DNA of 64,000 nucleotides from Candidatus Alcyoniella australis (GTDB lineage: Bacteria; Lernaellota; Lernaellaia; JAVCCG01; Alcyoniellaceae). Where the stretch lies: NCBI GenBank assembly GCA_030765605.1, contig JAVCCG010000133.1, positions 15,139-79,138 of the forward strand, written 5' to 3'. Positions 29,805 to 60,179 of the stretch are shown one piece after another. Numbering within the stretch: the stretch's first letter is position 1; the number at the start of each line of letters is the position of its first letter. The notes beneath the pieces were generated by a model. The model worked only from the letters and a program-made list of their open reading frames with translations. It ran no database searches and was not told the DNA's origin. The position numbers and the translations under genes are program-made.

Positions 29805-31142
<1,338 letters not shown>

Positions 31143-37767: not shown

Positions 37768-38742
37768 TCAAGGCCCTTCCGAGCTTCCGCGGGTTTTATC
37801 GGGTTCGGCGGGTTGGGGCAGGCCGGGTTCATAGAGGGTGATGGTCAGGCCGTCGCGGTCGCGGGCGCCGATCACGTATTTGCGCAGGCGAGGCCAGATT
37901 TGGTCCATGGTCTGGTAATAAAGTCGGGTGTAGGCGTTGCGGCGGTCGGTTCCGACCTCAGCGGCGAGCAGTTTGAAGCGTTCGGCCTCGCCCGTGGCGC
38001 GGTTGACGCGTTCTTGCTGGTAGGTCTCGCCCTCGCTACGGGCGCGGTTGGCCTCGGCGCGGGCCCGGGGCATGGCCTGGTTGGCGTAGCCGTCGGCCTC
38101 GTTGATCAGGCGACTGCGGTCCTCGCGGGCGCTGGAGACCTCGTTGAACGAGGCGGCCACCCCGCGCGGGTTGATGATCTGATCGACCTGCATCGAGCTG
38201 ATGCTCAGGCCGCTGGAATAGGCGTCCATGTCGGCCTGGATGTCGCGCATCACCTCGGCGGCGATGATCGACTTATCGGTGGTCAGGGCGTCGTCTACGG
38301 CCATGGCGGCCAGTCGGCGCGTGACCGCGGCCTCGCCGCTGATGCGCACCAGCTCGTGGGGATCAAAGGTGTTGAGCAGGAACGCAGCCGGGTCGTTGAT
38401 CGTGTAGCGCACCACGAGCATCACCACGATCCAGTTGCGGTCGCCGGTGAGGAACTGGCGTTGGAATACGCCCGCGATGTCCGAGACTTGTTCCTGGCCG
38501 ACCTCGAAGCCGATGCCGCGCTGTTTGAGGTCGGTGACGTTGGGCCGGTCCACGCGCTCAACGGGCCAGGGCAGGTGGTAGTGGATGCCCGGCGGCACGC
38601 GGTTTTCGGTCACCGCGCCGAAGCGCCGCACCACGCCCTGCTGGTTGTAATCCACGATGTACAGGCCCGAGGCCAGGTAGATCAGCAGCAGCGCGGCCGC
38701 GCATAGCAGCGAGAGCAGGCGTAGCCGGCGGCTTTGGGCCAC
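37768..38742 (-). CDS. SPFH/Band-7 protein, HflK/HflC-like (third of cluster)
   Basis: 324 residues. An N-terminal membrane helix (about 8-28) is followed by the SPFH domain (VDYNQQGVVRRFGAVTENRV, HYHLPWPVERVDRPNV) and a helical coil with alternating Ala/Arg/Glu. The VVRRFG..PG.H..LPWP pattern is closest to HflK. HflKC complexes enclose and restrain the FtsH protease in the inner membrane. The GTG start lies one base after the stop of the HflC-like gene upstream. The Pro-rich tail is not conserved in the family. Confidence 0.87.
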   Translation of the reverse strand: MAQSRRLRLLSLLCAAALLLIYLASGLYIVDYNQQGVVRRFGAVTENRVPPGIHYHLPWPVERVDRPNVTDLKQRGIGFEVGQEQVSDIAGVFQRQFLTGDRNWIVVMLVVRYTINDPAAFLLNTFDPHELVRISGEAAVTRRLAAMAVDDALTTDKSIIAAEVMRDIQADMDAYSSGLSISSMQVDQIINPRGVAASFNEVSSAREDRSRLINEADGYANQAMPRARAEANRARSEGETYQQERVNRATGEAERFKLLAAEVGTDRRNAYTRLYYQTMDQIWPRLRKYVIGARDRDGLTITLYEPGLPQPAEPDKTRGSSEGP

Positions 38743-38743
38743 G

Positions 38744-39688
38744 TTAGTCGACCTTTCCCGAGACCAGTAGCTTGAGCACCTCGGCGTCGGAATCGAGCAC
38801 TATCACGGTCTGTTCGTCGAGGAACTTGCGGTAGCTCTCCAGGGTGCGCGTCAGCTTGTACAGTTCGGGGTCCGAGCTGTAGGCCTCGGCGTAAATCCGG
38901 GCCGCAACCGCGTCGCCCTCGCCCTTGGTCTGCTCGGCGTCGCGATAGGCCTCGGTGAGAATCCGGCTGACCTCTTTGTCGGTCTCGGCCTTGATCTTCT
39001 CGGCCTCCTCTTCGCCCTCGGCGCGGTACTTTTTGGCAATGCGCTGGCGCTCGGAGCGCATCCGGCGGTAGACCGAGGCGCGCGTGCCCTCGGGGAAGCC
39101 GAAGCGCCGCAGGCCGACGTCGACGACCTCCACCCCCAGCTCCTCGCGGGCCGCGGATCGGCAGCGCTCGGTTGCGACCTGCATGATCTGCTCGATCTGC
39201 ACGCCGTCGGGCTCAACCGAGAGCAGGACGGAGAGCTCTGACTTGCCCAGCACGTCGCTGACCTCGCTGAGCAGCATCGAGCTTAAGCGCACCTCGGCCG
39301 TGCGCCGGTCCTTGACCGTGCGGATGAACAGTCGCGGATCGGCGATGCGCCAGCAGGCGTAGGCCTCGTAGACCAGCGGTTTTTTATCTTGGGTCAGCAC
39401 CTCGGCCGGCCGCGCGTCGAGCACCATCAGCCGCGCGTCAAAGCGGTGCACCGACTGGATCGGGTCGGGCCACTTGAAGTACAGCCCGGGCTTGTCCAGC
39501 ACGCGCACCGGGTCGCCCAGGAACGTCAGCAGCCCCAGCTCGGACTGGTCGATGGTGAACAGCATGTTGTTCAACAGCAGGAAGCAGATGATCAGCAGGC
39601 CGACCACGATCAGCCAGGTCCGGGCAGCCCCCGCGGTCGCCGCTGCCGGGCCGGGGTCGGGCCCGCTGTTTGTCGCATCGTGGCTCAT
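38744..39688 (-). CDS. hflC: SPFH protein HflC-like (second of cluster)
   Basis: 314 residues. The sequence is HflC-like: after a membrane helix (about 25-45), DQSELGLLTFLGDPVRVLDK PGLYFKWP appears (the family's F-G-x..PGLHFK-P pattern), then YEAYACWRI, RRMRSERQRIAKKYRAEGEE and the AYSSDPELYKLTRTLESYRK stretch, which is specific to HflC. HflC normally pairs with HflK, and here two HflK-like genes flank it. The start overlaps the upstream stop (ATGA), so all three genes are coupled. Confidence 0.88.
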   Translation of the reverse strand: MSHDATNSGPDPGPAAATAGAARTWLIVVGLLIICFLLLNNMLFTIDQSELGLLTFLGDPVRVLDKPGLYFKWPDPIQSVHRFDARLMVLDARPAEVLTQDKKPLVYEAYACWRIADPRLFIRTVKDRRTAEVRLSSMLLSEVSDVLGKSELSVLLSVEPDGVQIEQIMQVATERCRSAAREELGVEVVDVGLRRFGFPEGTRASVYRRMRSERQRIAKKYRAEGEEEAEKIKAETDKEVSRILTEAYRDAEQTKGEGDAVAARIYAEAYSSDPELYKLTRTLESYRKFLDEQTVIVLDSDAEVLKLLVSGKVD

Positions 39689-41400
39689 CGTGTCCTCCTC
39701 TGGCCATCGGGCTCGGTCATGCGCAAATCGATTGCACCGGGGCTTAGGTGCGAGGGCACGATCACCTTGCGCCGCCCGGCCAGTGCCGCCTCAAGGGTCT
39801 CGAGGGTCAGTCGGTATTCGTGCAGCCGCCGCTGTCCGCGGATCGCCGCGGCAAGTTGGGTGAAGCGCGAGGCCTCGCCCCCAGCGCGCATGGTCGTGCT
39901 GGCGCGGTAGCCCTCGGAGTCGAACAGGATGCGCACCGCATCGCCGCGGGCGCGGGCGATTTTCTCGTTGTTGTAGCCCTGGGCGTCGTTGATCGCTTTC
40001 TCTTTGTCCTCGAGGGCCGAGTAGACTTCGCGGAAGTCCTCGACCACCTGCACCGGCGGATGCACGTCCTGCAAATAGACCGCGAGGATCGACAGGCCGG
40101 TGCCCATGGCCGTCAGACGGCATTGGGCGCGCGCGGCCACGGCCTGCTCCACGTCGCGGCGTTCCCAGATCAGCGCCTGCTCGAAGTTGAGTCCGGCGAC
40201 CTCGCCGTGCAGCGCCGACTCCACTGCCGCGGTCACCATCCGCTCGATGTCGGCCACTCCCAGCAGCGCCGCCGCCGGGTCGGAGAGGCTGTACTGCACC
40301 ACGAGGTTGACGTCGAGCATGTTCTCGTCGCCGGTGAGCACCAGCGCCTCGTCGATCTTCTTTTGGTAGACCCCTGCGGTGTGCAGGCTATCCCACTCGT
40401 AGTTCGAGCGCAGGCGTACCGTGCTTACCGGACCCTGGGGCAGGCTGCGGAAGCCGACCTCGAGTTGGCGTACCCGTTGCGGCTCCACGGTGATCACGCG
40501 CTCAATGGGCGCCGGGGCCAGCCAGTGCAGTCCGGGCTGTAGCGGCTGGCCTTGCAGGCCGCCCCAGCGCAGCCGCAGGCCGACCTGGTCCGGGCCGACC
40601 ATGGTCAGTCCGCTGAGCACCCACAGCACGAGCACCAGTAGCGCCGTGCAGGCCAGCAGCCCGCGCCGACGGACGGCCACCCGTTCCCAGAGGCGTTCGC
40701 CGACCAGCTTGCGGCCGACCAGCCCCAGGAAGCCGTAACGCCGATGCTGCTCAGCCCCGTGTTTGGAGCGGGTCAGCAGGCCCAGCAGCGCACCGATTCC
40801 CACGTCAAGGCCGATGCCCGCGACCAACACCACGATCAGCGCGGCCACCGGCCGATCGAGCCGCAGTCCGATCACCTGGCCCATCAGCGCTAAAATCACG
40901 GCCAGCGAGGTCATTACGTCCATGCTGGTATGGCGGCTGTCCGCGGTCAGCGAGGGCGAGCCGGTCTCGCGTCCGGCGCGCGCCTGATAGCGCGCCAAGC
41001 CCCAGTTGATCAGCGCGAAGCAAAAGGTGGCCACAATCGCTGCGGGCAGCCATTCGCCGCGCACTTGCAGCGAGGGGCGGCCGATCATCAGGCCGATGCG
41101 CAGGGCCGCGCCGAGAATCATCAGCGAGATCAGCAGCGCCACCAGGTTTTCGATCAGCACCGCTTGGCTTGGACGACGCTCGCCCAGCCGTACGCCGACC
41201 AGCACCATTGCCGAGACCACCATGTCCGAGAGGCTGTGCAGCGCGTCGGCGACCATCGCCATGCTGCCCACCAGCAGGCCAAAAAGCGCCTCGCCAAGCA
41301 CCAGCAGCAAGTTCACCGCGATGCTCACCTTGGCCACGCGGGCGCGGCGCGGCGCATCCGTAGTCTGTGGCTGCTGTTGCGTCGGGTGGCTCGTTGACAT
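39685..41400 (-). CDS. Fusion of a cation diffusion facilitator membrane domain to an HflK-like SPFH domain
   Basis: 571 residues. Residues about 20-215 are a CDF-type transporter core: six or so helices with ADALHSLSD (Asp52, His55, Asp59) and ADSRHTSMD (Asp154, His157, Asp161), the paired H-x3-D metal site of ZnT-type exporters. In place of the usual CDF cytoplasmic domain come a further helix (about 250-270) and an HflK SPFH domain (VGPDQVGLRLRWG, QPGLHWLAPAPIERV, AVYLQDVHPPVQV, EKEKAINDAQGYNNE-like coil). Both halves look intact. It is the first gene of a three-gene SPFH operon. A metal transporter physically built into an FtsH-modulating scaffold would be unusual; the role is inference. 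Confidence 0.87.
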   Translation of the reverse strand: MSTSHPTQQQPQTTDAPRRARVAKVSIAVNLLLVLGEALFGLLVGSMAMVADALHSLSDMVVSAMVLVGVRLGERRPSQAVLIENLVALLISLMILGAALRIGLMIGRPSLQVRGEWLPAAIVATFCFALINWGLARYQARAGRETGSPSLTADSRHTSMDVMTSLAVILALMGQVIGLRLDRPVAALIVVLVAGIGLDVGIGALLGLLTRSKHGAEQHRRYGFLGLVGRKLVGERLWERVAVRRRGLLACTALLVLVLWVLSGLTMVGPDQVGLRLRWGGLQGQPLQPGLHWLAPAPIERVITVEPQRVRQLEVGFRSLPQGPVSTVRLRSNYEWDSLHTAGVYQKKIDEALVLTGDENMLDVNLVVQYSLSDPAAALLGVADIERMVTAAVESALHGEVAGLNFEQALIWERRDVEQAVAARAQCRLTAMGTGLSILAVYLQDVHPPVQVVEDFREVYSALEDKEKAINDAQGYNNEKIARARGDAVRILFDSEGYRASTTMRAGGEASRFTQLAAAIRGQRRLHEYRLTLETLEAALAGRRKVIVPSHLSPGAIDLRMTEPDGQRRTR

Positions 41401-41470: not shown

Positions 41471-42517
41471 CTATTTAACGCTGATGGCTCCAGGTTCGCC
41501 GTCAATGATTTTGCCGACAACCCAGCCGGGGAACGGCCCTTGCGCGAGCCCTTCGAGCATCTTTTCGGCGTTGCCCGGCGGCAGTGCGGCCAGCAGTCCG
41601 CCCGAGGTCTGGGCGTCGGCCGCCAGCATCAGCAGGTCCGGGTCGGCTCCGGGCAGACGGATCAGGCCGGGTTCGACGTACTTAAGGTTGGCGTGGGTGC
41701 CGCCGGGGATCAGCCCCTCGCGGATGAGCTCGAGCACGCCGGGCATTTGCGGCAGGGACGCGAGATCGATTTGCGCGGCCACGCCCGAGGCGTTGCACAT
41801 CTCCCACAGGTGGCCCAGCAGGCCGAAGCCCGTGACGTCGGTCAGCGAGTGCACGTCCGCGGCGATCGCCGCGCGCATCCCTTGCTCGTTGAGCAGGCAG
41901 GCGGATTGCACCAGCGCGTCGATCTGTTGCGGCTGCGCGGACTCGGCCTTGATTGCCGTGGCGATCAACCCGGTTCCCAGGGGTTTAGTTAATACCAGCA
42001 CGTCGCCGGGACGCGCCGTGGCGTTGGTCAGCACGCGATCGGGGTGCACCAGGCCGACCACGGCCAGGCCGTACTTGGGTTCGGGATCGTCCACGGTGTG
42101 GCCGCCGAGCACCATGCAGTGCGCCTCGGCTGCGGCGTCGTACCCGCCGCGTAAAATCGCCGCGACCAGCTCGTCGGGCAGCTTGCCTTGGGGAATCGAC
42201 AGCAGGTTCAGCGCGGCGAACGGTTCGCCGCCCATGGCGTAGACGTCGGAGAGCGCGTTGACCGCGGCAATGCGGCCGAACAGGTAGGGGTCATCGACGA
42301 TCGGCGTGAAGAAGTCGGTGGTCAGCACCAGGGCGCGCTCGTCATCGAGGCGCACCACCGCGGCGTCGTCAGGCACGGCCGTGCCGACGATGATCCGCGC
42401 GTCCTGCGGTACGGGCAGGTGCTTCAGTATCTTTTGCAGCGCTCCCGGCGCCAGCTTACAGGCTCAGCCTGCGCCGTGAGAAAGCTGCGTGAGCTTGATC
42501 CGCTCCATCCGCTCCAT
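41471..42517 (-). CDS. selD: Selenophosphate synthetase (SelD), predicted selenoprotein with in-frame UGA
   Basis: 348 residues if the TGA at 42466-42464 is read as selenocysteine. Translation upstream of the shorter frame gives LTQLSHGAGUACKLAPGAL, which aligns exactly with the SelD active-site loop (E. coli ..SHGAGCGCK..), with U at the catalytic Cys position (Cys17 in E. coli). The rest is normal: VPDDAAVV, LVLTTDFFTPIVDDPYLFGRIAA, NALSDVYAMGG, VTGFGLLGHL. SelD makes selenophosphate from selenide and ATP for Sec and selenouridine synthesis; Sec-containing SelD is known in bacteria and archaea. The start is ATG 42517 or 42508. It lies 22 bases after acd. Confidence 0.93.
42438..42463 (-). 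promoter_or_regulatory. Candidate bacterial SECIS hairpin of selD
   Basis: Directly after the UGA codon, minus-strand GGCGC (42452-42448) can pair with GCGCU (42442-42438) around a five-base CGGGA loop, 16 bases after the UGA. The position fits bacterial SECIS elements, which bind SelB. The stem is short and was found by eye; folding could differ. Confidence 0.4.
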
Positions 42518-42539
42518 CCGCTCCGATTGGTTGTTGCGT

Positions 42540-45297: not shown

Positions 45298-48126
45298 TCA
45301 TAGCGGCGGCGGCGAGACAGCCCGCATCTTTACATCCGAGGGCAGCACCAGCAGTCCGCCGAGCATGCTGATGTCGGACTGTCCGCTGATCAGCACCTCC
45401 ATTCGGCCGTCGTCGTTGAAGAACATCCGGCCGGTTTGCTCCAGGGCCAGCTCGTGCTCGAGTAGCGCGTTGAGGATTCCGTTGCGCACCGTGAAGTAGG
45501 TCATCATCGAGATGTTCATCTGCGGCAGACCGTCGTCGGCCTCGACCACCGGGGCCATACCGGTCTGGAAAACGTCGATGGTGATCGGACCCATGCCCAC
45601 GGGCCCGGGATCGCCCGGCGACTTGTCGTCGTCGTCCATCGTCAGGCCCATTGAGGTGGAGGTGGCGTAGAGCACGATGCCGCTGGAGAGCGAGATGTCC
45701 AGGTACGGCTCGCCGTCGCGGTCGTAGGCCAGCCCCCTGACGAACGAGACCATCTCGCCGCTGACGTAGCTGGGCCAGACGATCAAGGCGGAGAGGATCT
45801 CAATTTGATTCTCGGGCGTGGGCGTTTCGGTGTCGTCGAAGAAGCCGTTGCCGTCGGTGTCGGAGATCGGGTCGGCGTGTAAAAACAGCTCGACGTCGGC
45901 CGTGGGCTCGACCGCGGTGAAGTCCAGGCGGTAGTCCTCGCCGCCGGGCTCCAGGTCGTTGTCCGTGTCGAGCTGCGCGCTGCCGTAGGAACGGATTTCC
46001 TCGCTGAGCTGCAGGCGGTAGCGCCGCCCGGGGGTCAGCGGCTCGTCGGGGATGATCACCAGCTTGCGCCAGTCGACCACGCTGGTGGCGTTCACCAGGG
46101 TGCCCGCGTCGATGTCGTAGAGCAGTACGGTGTCGCCGTAGTACATCGTTTCGCGGTTCATCACCTGGGTGAAGAACACCGTGGGCCACAGGTTGCACGG
46201 GTAGGTCGAGCCGTACTCGTTGGGCACGTCCATGGTCCCCAGCTTGGGCGGCCAGTACGACCAGGCGGCCGCGTTGGTCGAGAACGTCGTGCCCCAACGC
46301 TCGGTCAGGGCGTTGCCCGCCAAGTCGCAAAGTCCGGGTTCGGCGAACACGCCGTAGGCGGAGGAGGGCTCAAGCGGCTCGATCGGCCGCAGCGCGACCT
46401 TGGCGCCGTCCACGCTCACCGCGCAGGGCACCTGCTCTTCGTCCGCGTTGTAGAGCTTGACGAACTCGATGGTCGTCGGGTCGAGCGCCTCGTTGAAAAA
46501 GACGATCACCGGCGACTCGACCGGCACCAGCTTGGACGACTGCTGCGGCAGGCTCGAGAGCGCCTGCGGCGGCGTGCGGTCGGCCTTGCGCTGCGGCGTG
46601 CCGGGGTAGGGAATCTGGTAGAGCGAGATCGTGGTCGGGATCGACTCGCCGGCCAGCTTGAGCTCGGAGTAGCCCATCAGCTCGAGCACCATCTCGCCGT
46701 CCTCGCGCACGTAGCTCACGCCCACCAGTTCGACCCCCAGGATCTGCTGGGTCATGTTCGAGTTGGCGGTCGGATCCTCGGCCGTGAGCGAGATGTCCAT
46801 CACCAGGGTCAGCGCGGGAAGCACCTCGGTGTTGCCAACATAGTCGCGGCTGTCGCGCAAATAGCCCGACACGTCGCTGAGCATCTCGATGGTCAGCGGG
46901 CCGGTGACCAGCCCGGCGGGAATCTTGCCGCCGAGCATCGCGCTCATGCTGCTGGTGATCAGTTTTTCGCCGGCGCGGATCGTCAGCGGAATCTGCGAGA
47001 AGTCGCCGGTCTCGCCCAGCTCGCTGAACAGCGCGCCGCCCACGTACAACACGGACTCGCCCAGCAGTTTGCTGTCGGCGATCATCGTGTTCGCCGGACG
47101 GCCGGTCAGCGGGCTCAGCGGCATGTCTTCCGGGTCGAGGGCCTCGTGCAGGTCGCCGTCCGCGGCCGAGGGCCAGGCGTCGGTGATCAGCCGGCGTCGC
47201 GGCTCAGTGCTTTGCGGGTAGAAGCTCCAGACGAACGCCTGCTGCAACCCCGCGCCGTTCAGATCGTGGATCGCGGCAACGGCCACATCGTCATCGTCGT
47301 CGTCATCATCGTCGTCGGCCTTGGATGATTCATCGTCGTCGGCGTCCGGGTACTCGAAGGGGTCGGCCTCGATGGTCAGCTCGTAGGGCAGCTTCGGGTT
47401 GAGGTCGTCGAGCGGATCGATCACCACCAGGTTGCCCTGCACAAAGACCCGCGCTGCCACCAGCTCGCCGGGCTCGTCCGCCGGACCCTCGTCCTGTTGG
47501 TCGTCGTCATCATCATCGTCGGCCTTGGCGTCTTCGCCGGCCACGCGCAGATGCACGCTTTGGCCGTAGATCACGCTTTGGGCAACGATGGGCTCGGAAA
47601 ACGCAATGCGGAAGGTCGAGATGTCCAGCACCTCGTCCTGGGCCGGGTTGGTGTAGGCGACAGTGGGGAAGGCGCTGGAGTCGGGCCGGTCGGGCTTGGT
47701 CTGGAACACGATCTGCTGGATCTTACCGTCCATCAGCGGCGCGCGTCCCTGGAAGTCGCGCACGCCGTTGCGCAGTCGCACGCGGTAGCTCTGGTTGCCG
47801 CGCAGGGGGACCAGCGGAGTCAGTTCCACCGAGCTGCGGTGTAGGGTCAGCTTGTGGTCCACGGACTCGGTGCCGCCGCGCTCGAGCAGCCGCACAAAGC
47901 TCACCTGCCCCTCGACGGTCGCCGGGTCGATCGGCGCGGAGAACGCCAGGTGCACCCGGGCATGCACCGGCACCTGCTGCATCCCCTGATAGGGGTAGGC
48001 CGCGAGCAGGGTGAAGTTGTCGATCTTTGAAGTCTCGAGCCCGGCGTCGTCGTCCTTTTCGGAGCAGGCGGCGAACAGGGCCAAAGACACAATCAGCAAG
48101 ATGCAGATCAATCCGCGCTGATACAT
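45298..48126 (-). CDS. Large lipoprotein with Ig-like (Big_5-type) domains and poly-Asp inserts
   Basis: 942 residues. The signal peptide ends FAACSE, a lipobox. At least three bacterial Ig-like units are visible from the recurring pattern 'P-x-x-x-A-x-V..F-S/N-E-A/P-I/L-D-P-x-T' (AFSAPIDPATV, RIAFSEPIVAQ, VFFNEALDPTTI, FFTQVMNRETM). Three long Asp runs sit within loops. The last third (DLEPGGEDY, DTDGNGFFDDTETPTP) has a dockerin/thrombospondin-type calcium-like motif. It looks like a large surface protein. GGAGG lies six bases before the ATG at 48126. It is 10 bases after the FadL-like gene, so both are one operon. Confidence 0.82.
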   Translation of the reverse strand: MYQRGLICILLIVSLALFAACSEKDDDAGLETSKIDNFTLLAAYPYQGMQQVPVHARVHLAFSAPIDPATVEGQVSFVRLLERGGTESVDHKLTLHRSSVELTPLVPLRGNQSYRVRLRNGVRDFQGRAPLMDGKIQQIVFQTKPDRPDSSAFPTVAYTNPAQDEVLDISTFRIAFSEPIVAQSVIYGQSVHLRVAGEDAKADDDDDDDQQDEGPADEPGELVAARVFVQGNLVVIDPLDDLNPKLPYELTIEADPFEYPDADDDESSKADDDDDDDDDDVAVAAIHDLNGAGLQQAFVWSFYPQSTEPRRRLITDAWPSAADGDLHEALDPEDMPLSPLTGRPANTMIADSKLLGESVLYVGGALFSELGETGDFSQIPLTIRAGEKLITSSMSAMLGGKIPAGLVTGPLTIEMLSDVSGYLRDSRDYVGNTEVLPALTLVMDISLTAEDPTANSNMTQQILGVELVGVSYVREDGEMVLELMGYSELKLAGESIPTTISLYQIPYPGTPQRKADRTPPQALSSLPQQSSKLVPVESPVIVFFNEALDPTTIEFVKLYNADEEQVPCAVSVDGAKVALRPIEPLEPSSAYGVFAEPGLCDLAGNALTERWGTTFSTNAAAWSYWPPKLGTMDVPNEYGSTYPCNLWPTVFFTQVMNRETMYYGDTVLLYDIDAGTLVNATSVVDWRKLVIIPDEPLTPGRRYRLQLSEEIRSYGSAQLDTDNDLEPGGEDYRLDFTAVEPTADVELFLHADPISDTDGNGFFDDTETPTPENQIEILSALIVWPSYVSGEMVSFVRGLAYDRDGEPYLDISLSSGIVLYATSTSMGLTMDDDDKSPGDPGPVGMGPITIDVFQTGMAPVVEADDGLPQMNISMMTYFTVRNGILNALLEHELALEQTGRMFFNDDGRMEVLISGQSDISMLGGLLVLPSDVKMRAVSPPPL

Positions 48127-48136
48127 CGCCAACCTC

Positions 48137-50712: not shown

Positions 50713-52836
50713 GTGGACTTGATAGAGCACAGCTACCGAATTTTGGGTATGGACTGCCCGTCGTGCGCGTCCAAGGTCGAGCGCACGTTGGCTCAGGTCG
50801 ATGGCGTGCAGTCCGCGTTTTGCGATGCGACTTCGGGTTGGCTCAAGGTTCGGCTGAGCAACGAGGAGGCTGCCCAACGGGTCGAGCGCGCGGTGCGCGG
50901 CCTGGGCTACCAGCTCAGTGGCGAGGGCGGACGCCAGAATGTTCGGGAACAGGAACAGGGCGATCTGCGCGGACAGACGATCCAGGTGCTCTCGGCGTTG
51001 TACCTGATCGTGCTCGCCGCACTGGGCGGAGTGCTGTCGATCCCCGCTCAATACACGGTGCCGTTGTACGTGGTGGCAATACTGATCGGCGGCGCGCGGA
51101 TCTTCCTCAAAGCTTTCGGGTCGGTGCGCAGGCTCGACCTGGACATGAACGTGTTGATGAGCGTGGCCGTAATCGGCGCGGCGATCCTCGGCGAATGGTT
51201 CGAGGGCGCGGCGGTAGTCTCGCTGTTCTCCTTGGCCGAGCTGCTCGAGGCGCGCAGCATGCGTCGCGCCCGCGGCGAGATCGGCAAGCTACTCGATTTG
51301 GCGCCGCCGATCGCGGTGGTCAGGCGTCGCGGGTACGAGCTGGAGTTGCCCGCGGACAAGGTCGAGATCGGCGAGACGGTACTGGTCAAGCCCGGCCAGC
51401 GCATCCCGGTCGACGGCGTGGTTTCCGGCGGAGCGTCCGAGGTCAACCAGGCGCCGATCACCGGCGAGTCCAAGATGGTCGATCGCTACAAGGGCGACGA
51501 GGTGTTCGCCGGCACGCTCAACGGCTCGGGCTTTCTCGAGATCACCAGCACCCACCGCGCGCAAGATACCGTGCTCTCGCGAATCATCCATCTGGTCGAG
51601 CAGGCCCAGGAATCGCGCGCACCGGTGCAGCGCACGGTCGAGCGCTTCGCCCGGATCTACACGCCGCTGGTGATCGTCGCGGCGCTGCTGGTCTTCTTGC
51701 TGCCGCCGCTGCTGCAGGGCGGCGCGTGGGCCGACTGGTTCTACCGCGCGCTGGTGTTGCTGGTAATCGCCTGTCCCTGCGCCCTGGTGATCTCCACACC
51801 CGTGGCGATTATCACCGGCCTGACCGCCGCGGCGCGTAGCGGCGTGCTGATTAAAGGTGGATCGTTTCTCGAAGCTCTGGGCAAAATCGACGCGATGGCG
51901 CTGGACAAGACCGGTACCCTGACTTTTGGCGAGCCACGGCTGACAGATGTGATCCCGCTGACCGGAATGCGTGAACGCGAGCTGATGCTGATCGCCGCGG
52001 CGCTGGAGAAGCGCTCGGAGCATCCGCTGGCCAGGGCGATCCGCGCCAGGGCGATGGAGATGGGATTGGCCGTGCCCGACCCCGAGCAGTTCAAGAGCAT
52101 TCCGGGATTGGGAGCGCACTGTGTGATCGAGGGCCAAGGCTACACCATCGGCTCCCATCGCATGCTGCACAACAGCGGACTGTGCAACAAGGATCTGCAC
52201 AAGCAGGTCGAGCATCTTGAGCTCAGCGGCAACAGTGTGTTGCTGCTCAGCAGCGAGCAGGAACCGCTGGCGATCCTGCTGGTCTCGGACAACATGCGAC
52301 CCGAGGCTCCCCGGGCAATGCAGGAGCTCAAACGCGCGGGGATCAAACGCCTGGCCTTGCTCACCGGCGACAACCAGGAGAGCGCCGAGGGCGTGGCCTA
52401 CAACGCGGGCATCGACGAGATCTACTCCAACCTGCTGCCCGAGGATAAGCTCGAGCAGATCTACCAGCTAAAACGCCGTTACCACATGGTCGGCATGGTC
52501 GGCGACGGGGTCAACGACGCCCCGGCCCTGGCCGCTTCCTCGGTCGGATTCGCCATGGGCGCGGCCGGAACCGACGTGGCCATCGAGTCCGCCGACGTGG
52601 CGCTGCTCTCGGACGACCTGTTCGGGCTGGCGCGGGCGGTACGCCTGGGCCGACGCACCCTGACGGTGATCAGGCAGAACGTGGCCCTGGCGATCGGCAT
52701 CAAGGCCGTGGTGTTCGCCCTGGCATTGCTCGGAGTGGCGACGCTCTGGCTGGCGGTTCTGGCCGACATGGGCGCCAGTCTGCTGGTGGTGGCCAACAGC
52801 TTAAAGTTGATAAAAGAAGACAACATCAAGCCGTAG
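50713..52836 (+). CDS. Heavy-metal-translocating P-type ATPase (Zn/Cd/Pb type)
   Basis: 707 residues. One N-terminal HMA domain has GMDCPSCASKVE (Cys15, Cys18). About eight helices follow, with the CPC metal-binding motif (Cys354 and Cys356 in IACPCALV), the phosphorylation motif DKTGTLT (Asp398), the HP-motif (EHPLARAI) and GDGVNDAPALA. The CPC together with the C-terminal MGASLLVVANSLKL points to the ZntA/CadA zinc/cadmium/lead exporter class rather than the copper class. The GTG start is preceded by GGCAGGAGAA. It stands alone; no adjacent metal regulator is seen. Confidence 0.93.
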   Translation: MDLIEHSYRILGMDCPSCASKVERTLAQVDGVQSAFCDATSGWLKVRLSNEEAAQRVERAVRGLGYQLSGEGGRQNVREQEQGDLRGQTIQVLSALYLIVLAALGGVLSIPAQYTVPLYVVAILIGGARIFLKAFGSVRRLDLDMNVLMSVAVIGAAILGEWFEGAAVVSLFSLAELLEARSMRRARGEIGKLLDLAPPIAVVRRRGYELELPADKVEIGETVLVKPGQRIPVDGVVSGGASEVNQAPITGESKMVDRYKGDEVFAGTLNGSGFLEITSTHRAQDTVLSRIIHLVEQAQESRAPVQRTVERFARIYTPLVIVAALLVFLLPPLLQGGAWADWFYRALVLLVIACPCALVISTPVAIITGLTAAARSGVLIKGGSFLEALGKIDAMALDKTGTLTFGEPRLTDVIPLTGMRERELMLIAAALEKRSEHPLARAIRARAMEMGLAVPDPEQFKSIPGLGAHCVIEGQGYTIGSHRMLHNSGLCNKDLHKQVEHLELSGNSVLLLSSEQEPLAILLVSDNMRPEAPRAMQELKRAGIKRLALLTGDNQESAEGVAYNAGIDEIYSNLLPEDKLEQIYQLKRRYHMVGMVGDGVNDAPALAASSVGFAMGAAGTDVAIESADVALLSDDLFGLARAVRLGRRTLTVIRQNVALAIGIKAVVFALALLGVATLWLAVLADMGASLLVVANSLKLIKEDNIKP

Positions 52837-58786: not shown

Positions 58787-60157
58787 CTAATTAAAAAAGG
58801 CGATGGAGATTCCCTCTGAGCGCGAGGGCCAATTGCGCACGGCCAGGGGGCGACCGCTGAACTCGAAGTTCGTCGCGGCCTGCTGGTCGCCGGCCACACG
58901 CATGTCGAAAACGCGGATGAACGGCACCATGTCAAACGGGAATCCGGCCATTGTCAGGTCGCTGACGCCGTTGAAGTTGGAGTCGATGAATCCCACAACG
59001 ATGGTCGAGGCCTGCGGATCACCGATGGGCGTGGCCGCGAGGTCCAATCCGTTGACCAGCAGCGTGTCGCGGCCCGCGACCAGCGAGCGGTTGAGGTTGA
59101 GGTAGGCGACCAAGGCCAACTCGTCGTCAAAGGGGATCAGCCGGAACACGTACCCAAGGAAGCTCTCCGGTCCGGGGAATGAGCGGAAGTGGACCTTGTC
59201 GCTGGAACGCACGAACGGCTCGCGGTAGTAGTGCACCGGCGGCAACTCCGGGTCGGGGTCGATGTAGACGAACTCGTAATAGGCCTCGGGCTCGGCAATC
59301 AGCTCGCCCCAATATCCGTTGTCGTCGACCTGAAATACGGCCAGCGGCTGCTCGCTGTAACGCATCGCGTTCGCCGGATCGACCTGATAGACACGCAGTT
59401 CGATGCCCGCTTTGGGCAGGTTCTCGCCCAGGGTCAACACGCGACCCGCGAGGCGGATCGGGCTGTGCGGCTCGATTTGGGTGGTGCGCGGCTCACGGTC
59501 GTTGAAGAAGCGATAAATCTCGTCAAACGTCTGGGCCGAGGTCGCCAGTTGCAGATGATCCAGGCCAGGCAGAACCACATTTTGCGCACCCTCGATCTGG
59601 GTGACGCCGCCGATGATGTAGTCGTCGGGCGATGAGATGTTGAGCGTATCGACCAGCGCGGGGAAGTCCTGGTAGGGGAGCGCGGCAAGGTTGGCGTAGT
59701 GTGCCACCAGCGCCGGATTGCCGGGCCGCGAGAGGAACTCGTGACACAGGTAGCCGCCCATCGAGTGCCCCAGCAGGTCGATCTGCTGCGCGCCGCTACG
59801 TTGCATCACCTCGGCTACGAAGCCCTCGAGGCGCAGGGTTTCGTACTTCACATCGCCCAGGGTGTTCCAGTCGAAGCTGTGGATTTGCTCCGGGCAGTAG
59901 CCGTTGGTGGTCAGGCGCTGTGTCTGGGTGTGGAACGCGTCGCCGTTCTCGATTAATCCGTGGGCAAAGACGATGGGCAGCAGCGTATCGTCGCACTCGG
60001 GCTGACCGTCGTCGTCGCCATCGTCGTCGTTGCCGGAATCATCGTCGTCCTGCGGGTCCTGGTCGTCATCATCGTCGTTGGAATCGCAGGCTGTAAGCGC
60101 ACAGCACAGCAGCACGAATATCAAAACGGCAAGCAGGGCTGCGGTCGGACTACGCAT
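58787..60157 (-). CDS. Lipase-type alpha/beta hydrolase lipoprotein with poly-Asp spacer
   Basis: 456 residues. The signal peptide ends LTACDS, a lipobox. An Asp/Asn-rich spacer of about 30 residues comes next. The hydrolase domain follows: VFAHGLIENGDAF (oxyanion region), DLLGHSMGGYLCHEFL with the nucleophile Ser in G-H-S-M-G, and a later segment with the acid and His. The C-terminal half (about 260-456) looks like beta-sandwich accessory domains. It resembles bacterial surface lipases. The ATG at 60157 (MRSPTA) is chosen because GGAGAAG precedes it; ATG 60169 is the alternative. Confidence 0.83.
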   Translation of the reverse strand: MRSPTAALLAVLIFVLLCCALTACDSNDDDDDQDPQDDDDSGNDDDGDDDGQPECDDTLLPIVFAHGLIENGDAFHTQTQRLTTNGYCPEQIHSFDWNTLGDVKYETLRLEGFVAEVMQRSGAQQIDLLGHSMGGYLCHEFLSRPGNPALVAHYANLAALPYQDFPALVDTLNISSPDDYIIGGVTQIEGAQNVVLPGLDHLQLATSAQTFDEIYRFFNDREPRTTQIEPHSPIRLAGRVLTLGENLPKAGIELRVYQVDPANAMRYSEQPLAVFQVDDNGYWGELIAEPEAYYEFVYIDPDPELPPVHYYREPFVRSSDKVHFRSFPGPESFLGYVFRLIPFDDELALVAYLNLNRSLVAGRDTLLVNGLDLAATPIGDPQASTIVVGFIDSNFNGVSDLTMAGFPFDMVPFIRVFDMRVAGDQQAATNFEFSGRPLAVRNWPSRSEGISIAFFN

Positions 60158-60179
60158 GATCTTCTCCATTGCCGATTGC

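Follow-up and report, generated by a model that had tools for sequence, protein, structure and literature searches.

The locus

The window analysed here, a stretch of 64,000 nucleotides from Candidatus Alcyoniella australis, contains a tight triad of genes on one strand, in the order fusion, HflC-like and HflK-like. All triad features given below lie on the minus strand. The first gene (39685..41400, ATG start, 571 aa) encodes a CDF-type transporter fused to an HflK-type SPFH protein, and the observation of this fusion in the window is confirmed. The second gene (38744..39688, 314 aa) is HflC-like and reaches 207.2 bits with TIGR01932 against a cut-off of 134.4. The third (37768..38742, 324 aa) is HflK-like and unfused, with 179.9 bits for TIGR01933 against a cut-off of 159.4. 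The ATG of the HflC-like gene overlaps the stop codon of the fusion (ATGA), which suggests that the translation of the two genes is probably coupled.

The front half of the fusion is a CDF transmembrane domain of six helices (residues 16-210, 40771..41355). It was recognised by the Cation_efflux profile of Pfam at residues 24-208 (E 1.1e-23, 84.5 bits against a cut-off of 26.6) and by the NCBIfam CDF model TIGR01297 (96.5 bits against 82.35). Both H-x3-D metal pairs reported in the earlier note are present, namely H55-x3-D59 (41224..41238) and H157-x3-D161 (40918..40932). Such an H-D/H-D site is also found in ZnT-type zinc transporters. CDF proteins usually, but not universally, end in a cytoplasmic dimer domain. 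As the earlier note had proposed, this sensor domain is missing: Pfam found no match to the CDF dimerisation domain in the fusion, and a linker seen in both the sequence and the model (residues 211-244, 40669..40770) and the SPFH helix stand in its place. Residues 208-247 include 11 Lys/Arg versus 3 Asp/Glu, and the linker is therefore predicted to lie on the cytoplasmic side of the membrane.

Behind the linker, hydropathy and the model place a seventh helix (residues 245-262, 40615..40668), the counterpart of the single HflK membrane anchor. It is followed by the SPFH/Band 7 domain (residues 265-449, 40054..40608; Pfam Band_7/SPFH at residues 267-475, E 2.4e-19) and by modelled coiled-coil helices (residues 450-539, 39784..40053). 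The fusion passes the HflK equivalog model TIGR01933 marginally (161.7 bits against 159.4), in agreement with the HflK-type assignment made earlier for this half. However, the model and hydropathy give seven helices for the whole protein, versus the one expected of an HflK.

The immediate upstream neighbour of the fusion is selD (41471-42526, minus strand), with an in-frame TGA within HGAG-U-ACK. It probably encodes a selenocysteine-containing SelD; in the program's list of open reading frames it was shortened to 41471-42376. About 9 kb from the triad, a gene (50713-52836, plus strand) encodes a P-type ATPase of the heavy-metal kind that bears a GMDCPSC motif near its N-terminus. Long aspartate runs occur in secreted-looking proteins encoded elsewhere in the window (45298-48132, 58787-60169 and 29805-31142). 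In the genome from which the window comes, one FtsH scored over the cut-off, and the triad is the only HflK/HflC set besides a 262-residue stomatin-like protein.

Predicted structure

An AlphaFold model of the fusion was built from 44 relatives (mean pLDDT 82.4, pTM 0.52). With a pTM of only 0.52, the model does not fix how the two halves lie with respect to each other. In order, it comprises six long helices (residues 16-210), the linker, a helix at residues 245-262, an SPFH fold and a long coiled coil. Predicted residues 13-211 can be superposed on YiiP, a zinc transporter, with a Z of 21.9 (2.7 A over 196 residues). For predicted residues 247-549 the best fold match is E. coli HflK/HflC; the superposition on HflK gives a Z of 16.0 with an rmsd of 10.7 A over 266 residues, and the long coiled coil of the model is probably the source of this large rmsd. 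Thus, the structure prediction called for in the earlier note gives a YiiP-like front and an HflK-like back.

Compared with YiiP/FieF and the ZnT CDF transporters, the fusion shares the six-helix fold, a conserved Asn30 and the two metal pairs, but where these have a cytoplasmic C-terminal domain it has a charged linker and an SPFH protein. Like E. coli HflK/HflC, which form a cage around FtsH (PDB 7vhq, 7wi3, 9cz2), the triad combines SPFH domains, a coiled coil, a single membrane helix and adjacent hflK and hflC genes. It differs in that its SPFH genes number three and not two, and the first of them adds six transporter helices.

The CDF-SPFH fusion in other genomes

When one genome per species was scanned for a ten-residue SPFH motif, 80 loci came up. 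From these and from loci found in other searches we collected 63 CDF-SPFH fusions, so that the fusion does exist elsewhere, as the earlier note had allowed. They are spread over about a dozen phyla, and the carriers include Eisenbacteria, Zixibacteria, Chloroflexota, NC10, Rokubacteria, Alphaproteobacteria, Spirochaetota, Neomarinimicrobiota and Auribacterota. Among named isolates, the fusion is present in Rhizobium metallidurans, Oricola indica, Chelativorans multitrophicus, Nitratireductor indicus, Tianweitania sediminis, Aminobacter aganoensis and Allosediminivita pacifica. It is also found on a complete circular conjugative plasmid of Aquibium oceanicum.

The counts that follow are not independent trials, since the CDF fusions are kin to each other and were collected by similarity. 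The family, the gene order and the ligands are established at the level of sequence. An hflC gene comes next in all 62 evaluable cases (the contig of the 63rd stops at the stop codon of the fusion), which answers the question of whether this domain order always precedes HflC. An hflK-like gene then follows hflC in 58 of the 58 loci that reach that far. All four metal ligands are present in 56/63 fusions (H55 in 60, D59 in 60, H157 in 63 and D161 in 59). Hence neither refutation named in advance came true: the metal residues are not lost in most relatives, and the same join in dozens of independent genomes rules out an assembly error or a chance join.

At least one ligand is lost in 7/63 CDF halves (L073, L080, L081, L095, L108, L110 and L120). 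Three of these fusions, L073, L081 and L095, are related and have the changes H-x3-G and H-x3-H in common, which may reflect a different ion or lost transport.

A literature search brought up no description of CDF-, ATPase- or transporter-HflK fusions; most subscription papers lay outside the search, and this absence is not proof.

Other exporters in the same position

In sister triads, the slot of the CDF half is occupied by P1B-type heavy-metal ATPases (8) or by SO_0444-type Cu/Zn permeases (12). To our knowledge, no SPFH fusion of either family has been known. The ATPase-fronted triads come from Acidobacteriota, Planctomycetota, Aminicenantes and Armatimonadota. Three members of the class to which the window belongs carry a triad whose front is a PF03773 permease and not a CDF. 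The four permease fronts that we tested all passed the cut-off of the NCBI family 'SO_0444 family Cu/Zn efflux transporter', and the four ATPase fronts tested all passed that of heavy-metal ATPases. Among the P1B fronts, CPC is present in all seven complete ones and DKTGT in 8/8, while GDGxND is kept in the complete ones; the CSC motif was found in 11 of 11 ArsP_1/SO_0444 permease fronts checked.

Of 386 mostly unrelated genomes searched with a profile, at least about 25 have long fused frames. The loci fetched from this search proved to be triads too, fronted by a CDF, a permease or an ATPase; at one (L151) the fused gene alone was recognised.

In general, the first gene is fused in every triad where that gene is intact. 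This count covers 67 CDF loci (the table has 70 entries, but three are duplicates), 11 permease triads, 8 ATPase triads, one of which is front-truncated, and 2 Burkholderia types whose six-helix front has no assigned family. Three seemingly unfused triads have their first gene cut by the contig start. By contrast, 0/22 ordinary hflK-hflC pairs are fused (23 entries, one locus having been entered twice), and their hflK genes encode 329-437 residues. Two genomes (G030 and G061) carry such an ordinary pair besides the triad. The second, unfused HflK-type gene and the two other exporter families were overlooked in the earlier note, the interpretation of which is partly supported.

Trees and history

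In a quick HflC tree whose root is not known, a single group (SH-aLRT 99) unites the ordinary pairs, and no triad falls within it. In a quick HflK-type tree, likewise with its root not known, the third triad genes group with ordinary HflK (SH-aLRT 99), and the fused first genes fall outside the ordinary-HflK group. The fused subunit is thus placed in an SPFH lineage separate from ordinary HflK. From these groupings, we conclude that the triad is an old and separate system with a third type of SPFH subunit.

The permease-type triads appear in separate places of the HflC tree, but AU tests gave no rejection of a single group for the permeases (p 0.51) or for the CDF triads (p 0.52). With three unrelated front domains, replacement or fusion must still have happened at least twice.

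Gene neighbourhoods

Neighbouring genes were scored in the same way at the 67 CDF loci, the permease and ATPase triads and the 22 ordinary pairs. Near the CDF loci we found P1B ATPases (14 loci), PCu(A)C (10), SCO (7), a PpiD-like peptidyl-prolyl isomerase (28) and a response regulator (24). None of the P1B ATPase, PCu(A)C, SCO and isomerase genes was found near the 22 ordinary hflK-hflC pairs. The permease and ATPase triads have almost none of the scored metal neighbours, so the argument from neighbourhood is confined to the CDF group.

The larger CDF group, which includes Chloroflexota and Alphaproteobacteria among others, has a two-component system upstream and the PpiD-like isomerase directly downstream, with genes for P1B ATPases, PCu(A)C, SCO, MerR and Nramp close by. 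Some other CDF triads stand immediately behind a FeoB-type gene; at several of five loci (L063-L067), such a gene, with GTPase and gate domains, lies within about 20 bases upstream of the fusion. In the recurrent annotated neighbour clusters of the triads, ftsH is absent.

Relatives in Burkholderia and Pseudomonas

Burkholderia and Paraburkholderia plasmids carry a row consisting of a long HflK gene, HflC, a third SPFH gene and a P-type ATPase, and one such row adjoins genes for a metal ABC transporter and PCu(A)C. The long HflK genes lie in a zinc-operon-like cluster (L141, 6011-7831; L142, 5904-7799). Their six-helix front matched no Pfam family and is a candidate for an unknown membrane domain; unlike the front of the window's fusion, it has no detectable CDF similarity. 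A degenerate CDF was considered for this front and rejected, as a profile comparison based on two sequences only gave a probability of 0.1% and no similarity. We infer from gene order and product names that this row corresponds to the PA2439-PA2435 operon of Pseudomonas aeruginosa.

The P-type ATPase of that operon, HmtA, is described as an importer. The operon, which joins SPFH genes to HmtA, is zinc-responsive (PMC4542158, PMC8531726, PMC11761036): in a znuA mutant its SPFH genes rise 9- to 14-fold, its promoter is bound by Zur (PMC4542158, PMC8531726), and the SPFH proteins are raised in zinc-depleted proteomes (PMC11761036). According to passages of a 2026 survey of P. aeruginosa SPFH proteins, the three-SPFH operon is grouped as PaFlo5-7, its deletion gave no strong phenotype in the conditions tried and indicated no essential role, and these passages draw no link to metals (PMC13086221). 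We take PaFlo5-7 to be the same locus as PA2439-PA2435. The region PA2439-PA2434 (PaFlo5-7 and HmtA) resembles the triads in its three SPFH genes and nearby P1B ATPase, but here the ATPase is a separate gene and not, as in the ATPase-fronted triads, part of a fusion.

Discussion

We think it probable, although far from settled, that the product of the operon is a membrane assembly akin to HflK/C, one subunit of which carries a metal exporter, and that it handles zinc or copper and does not just modulate FtsH. Subunit A consists of the exporter, the HflK-type helix, the SPFH domain and the coiled coil, subunit B is HflC-like and subunit C is the unfused HflK-like protein; the order A-B-C is fixed. 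In E. coli, HflK and HflC alternate in a periplasmic cage of 24 subunits, for which an open form is known too (PMC12048511). In a mixed cage of this type, A and C would take the HflK positions and B the HflC positions, and some of the HflK positions would thus bring a pump. The six helices, the Arg/Lys-rich cytoplasmic linker and the HflK helix fit an SPFH domain on the outside, as in HflK. The SPFH walls would then be periplasmic, with the exporters in the membrane inside the cage or at its wall. That SPFH proteins are able to associate with transport proteins is illustrated by stomatin bound to aquaporin 1 (PDB 9zd2).

The exporter would move zinc, copper or a similar ion outward from the cytoplasm, and the H-D/H-D site together with the sister exporter families suggests zinc or copper. 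The ion would be discharged into the periplasmic chamber or next to it, and not into the periplasm at large, so as to be disposed of safely or handed to periplasmic chaperones. The scaffold may also cluster the pumps and take over the holding role of the missing CDF dimer domain. More tentatively, and with the balance of our judgement still against it, we propose that an SPFH cage with interchangeable metal exporters, pumping ions into a walled chamber on the outer face, is a widespread class of machine.

Some observations count against a cage-bound exporter. CDFs normally work as dimers and would have to pair within a ring. At least one ligand is missing from seven of the 63 CDF halves, and the Burkholderia front belongs to no recognisable transporter family, so that transport may not be universal in triads. 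The permease and ATPase triads are almost devoid of metal neighbours. The Pseudomonas branch answers zinc starvation and HmtA is described as an importer, which points to uptake there, and deleting the Pseudomonas genes caused, in the survey passages cited above, no strong phenotype (PMC13086221).

Another explanation is that the triad is a metal-responsive FtsH adaptor. The exporter half would bring FtsH to metal-stressed proteins or be itself under FtsH, and metal flux would control membrane proteolysis. In agreement with this, the C-terminal half of the fusion exceeds the HflK cut-off, and in the window's genome, with one FtsH and the triad as its sole HflK/HflC set, the triad may do the ordinary job. 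However, ftsH does not recur among the annotated neighbours, G030 and G061 hold separate ordinary pairs, and the fused subunits branch separately from ordinary HflK. Moreover, three interchangeable exporters suit transport better than the control of proteolysis. We therefore consider an adaptor role unlikely. The earlier proposal that metal flux is tied to proteolysis thus stands in so far as it linked metal transport to an SPFH scaffold; for the first three reasons just given, its FtsH-modulating purpose is not supported so far.

The triads might instead serve metal uptake or allocation, bringing in zinc or copper or loading cuproproteins under scarcity. In favour of this, the Pseudomonas relative is bound by Zur and raised in the znuA mutant (PMC4542158, PMC8531726), and the copper-delivery genes PCu(A)C and SCO adjoin many CDF triads. 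Against this, the fused families are known as exporters, other regulators (two-component systems, MerR) lie near the CDF triads, and the Pseudomonas branch is remote and has no recognisable fused exporter. For the triads, we find uptake rather improbable.

It is also conceivable that the front half no longer transports and acts as an anchor, sensor or spacer that sites the scaffold in particular membrane regions. The seven CDF halves with ligand losses and the Burkholderia front of no known family speak for this. As a general explanation it is very doubtful, however, given the four ligands in 56/63 CDF halves, CPC, DKTGT and GDGxND in the complete ATPase halves and CSC in the permease halves. 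Finally, although the genome behind the window is a draft in 157 contigs, an assembly or gene-calling artefact uniting two neighbouring genes can be dismissed, as 62 further loci show the same join in a continuous frame, among them one on a complete circular plasmid and several in named isolates.

Returning to the exporter-bearing assembly, it is worth stressing that the sharing of one scaffold slot by unrelated exporters would be difficult to account for if export were unimportant. What SPFH cages do beyond enclosing FtsH is an open question, and the fused exporters address it: three unrelated Cu/Zn exporters joined to one cage subunit name a likely cargo, which can be tested in culturable bacteria. 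The same arrangement could explain why the zinc regulon of Pseudomonas contains a three-SPFH operon with a metal ATPase. If our reading is true, metal export in these bacteria would be organised within a membrane enclosure.
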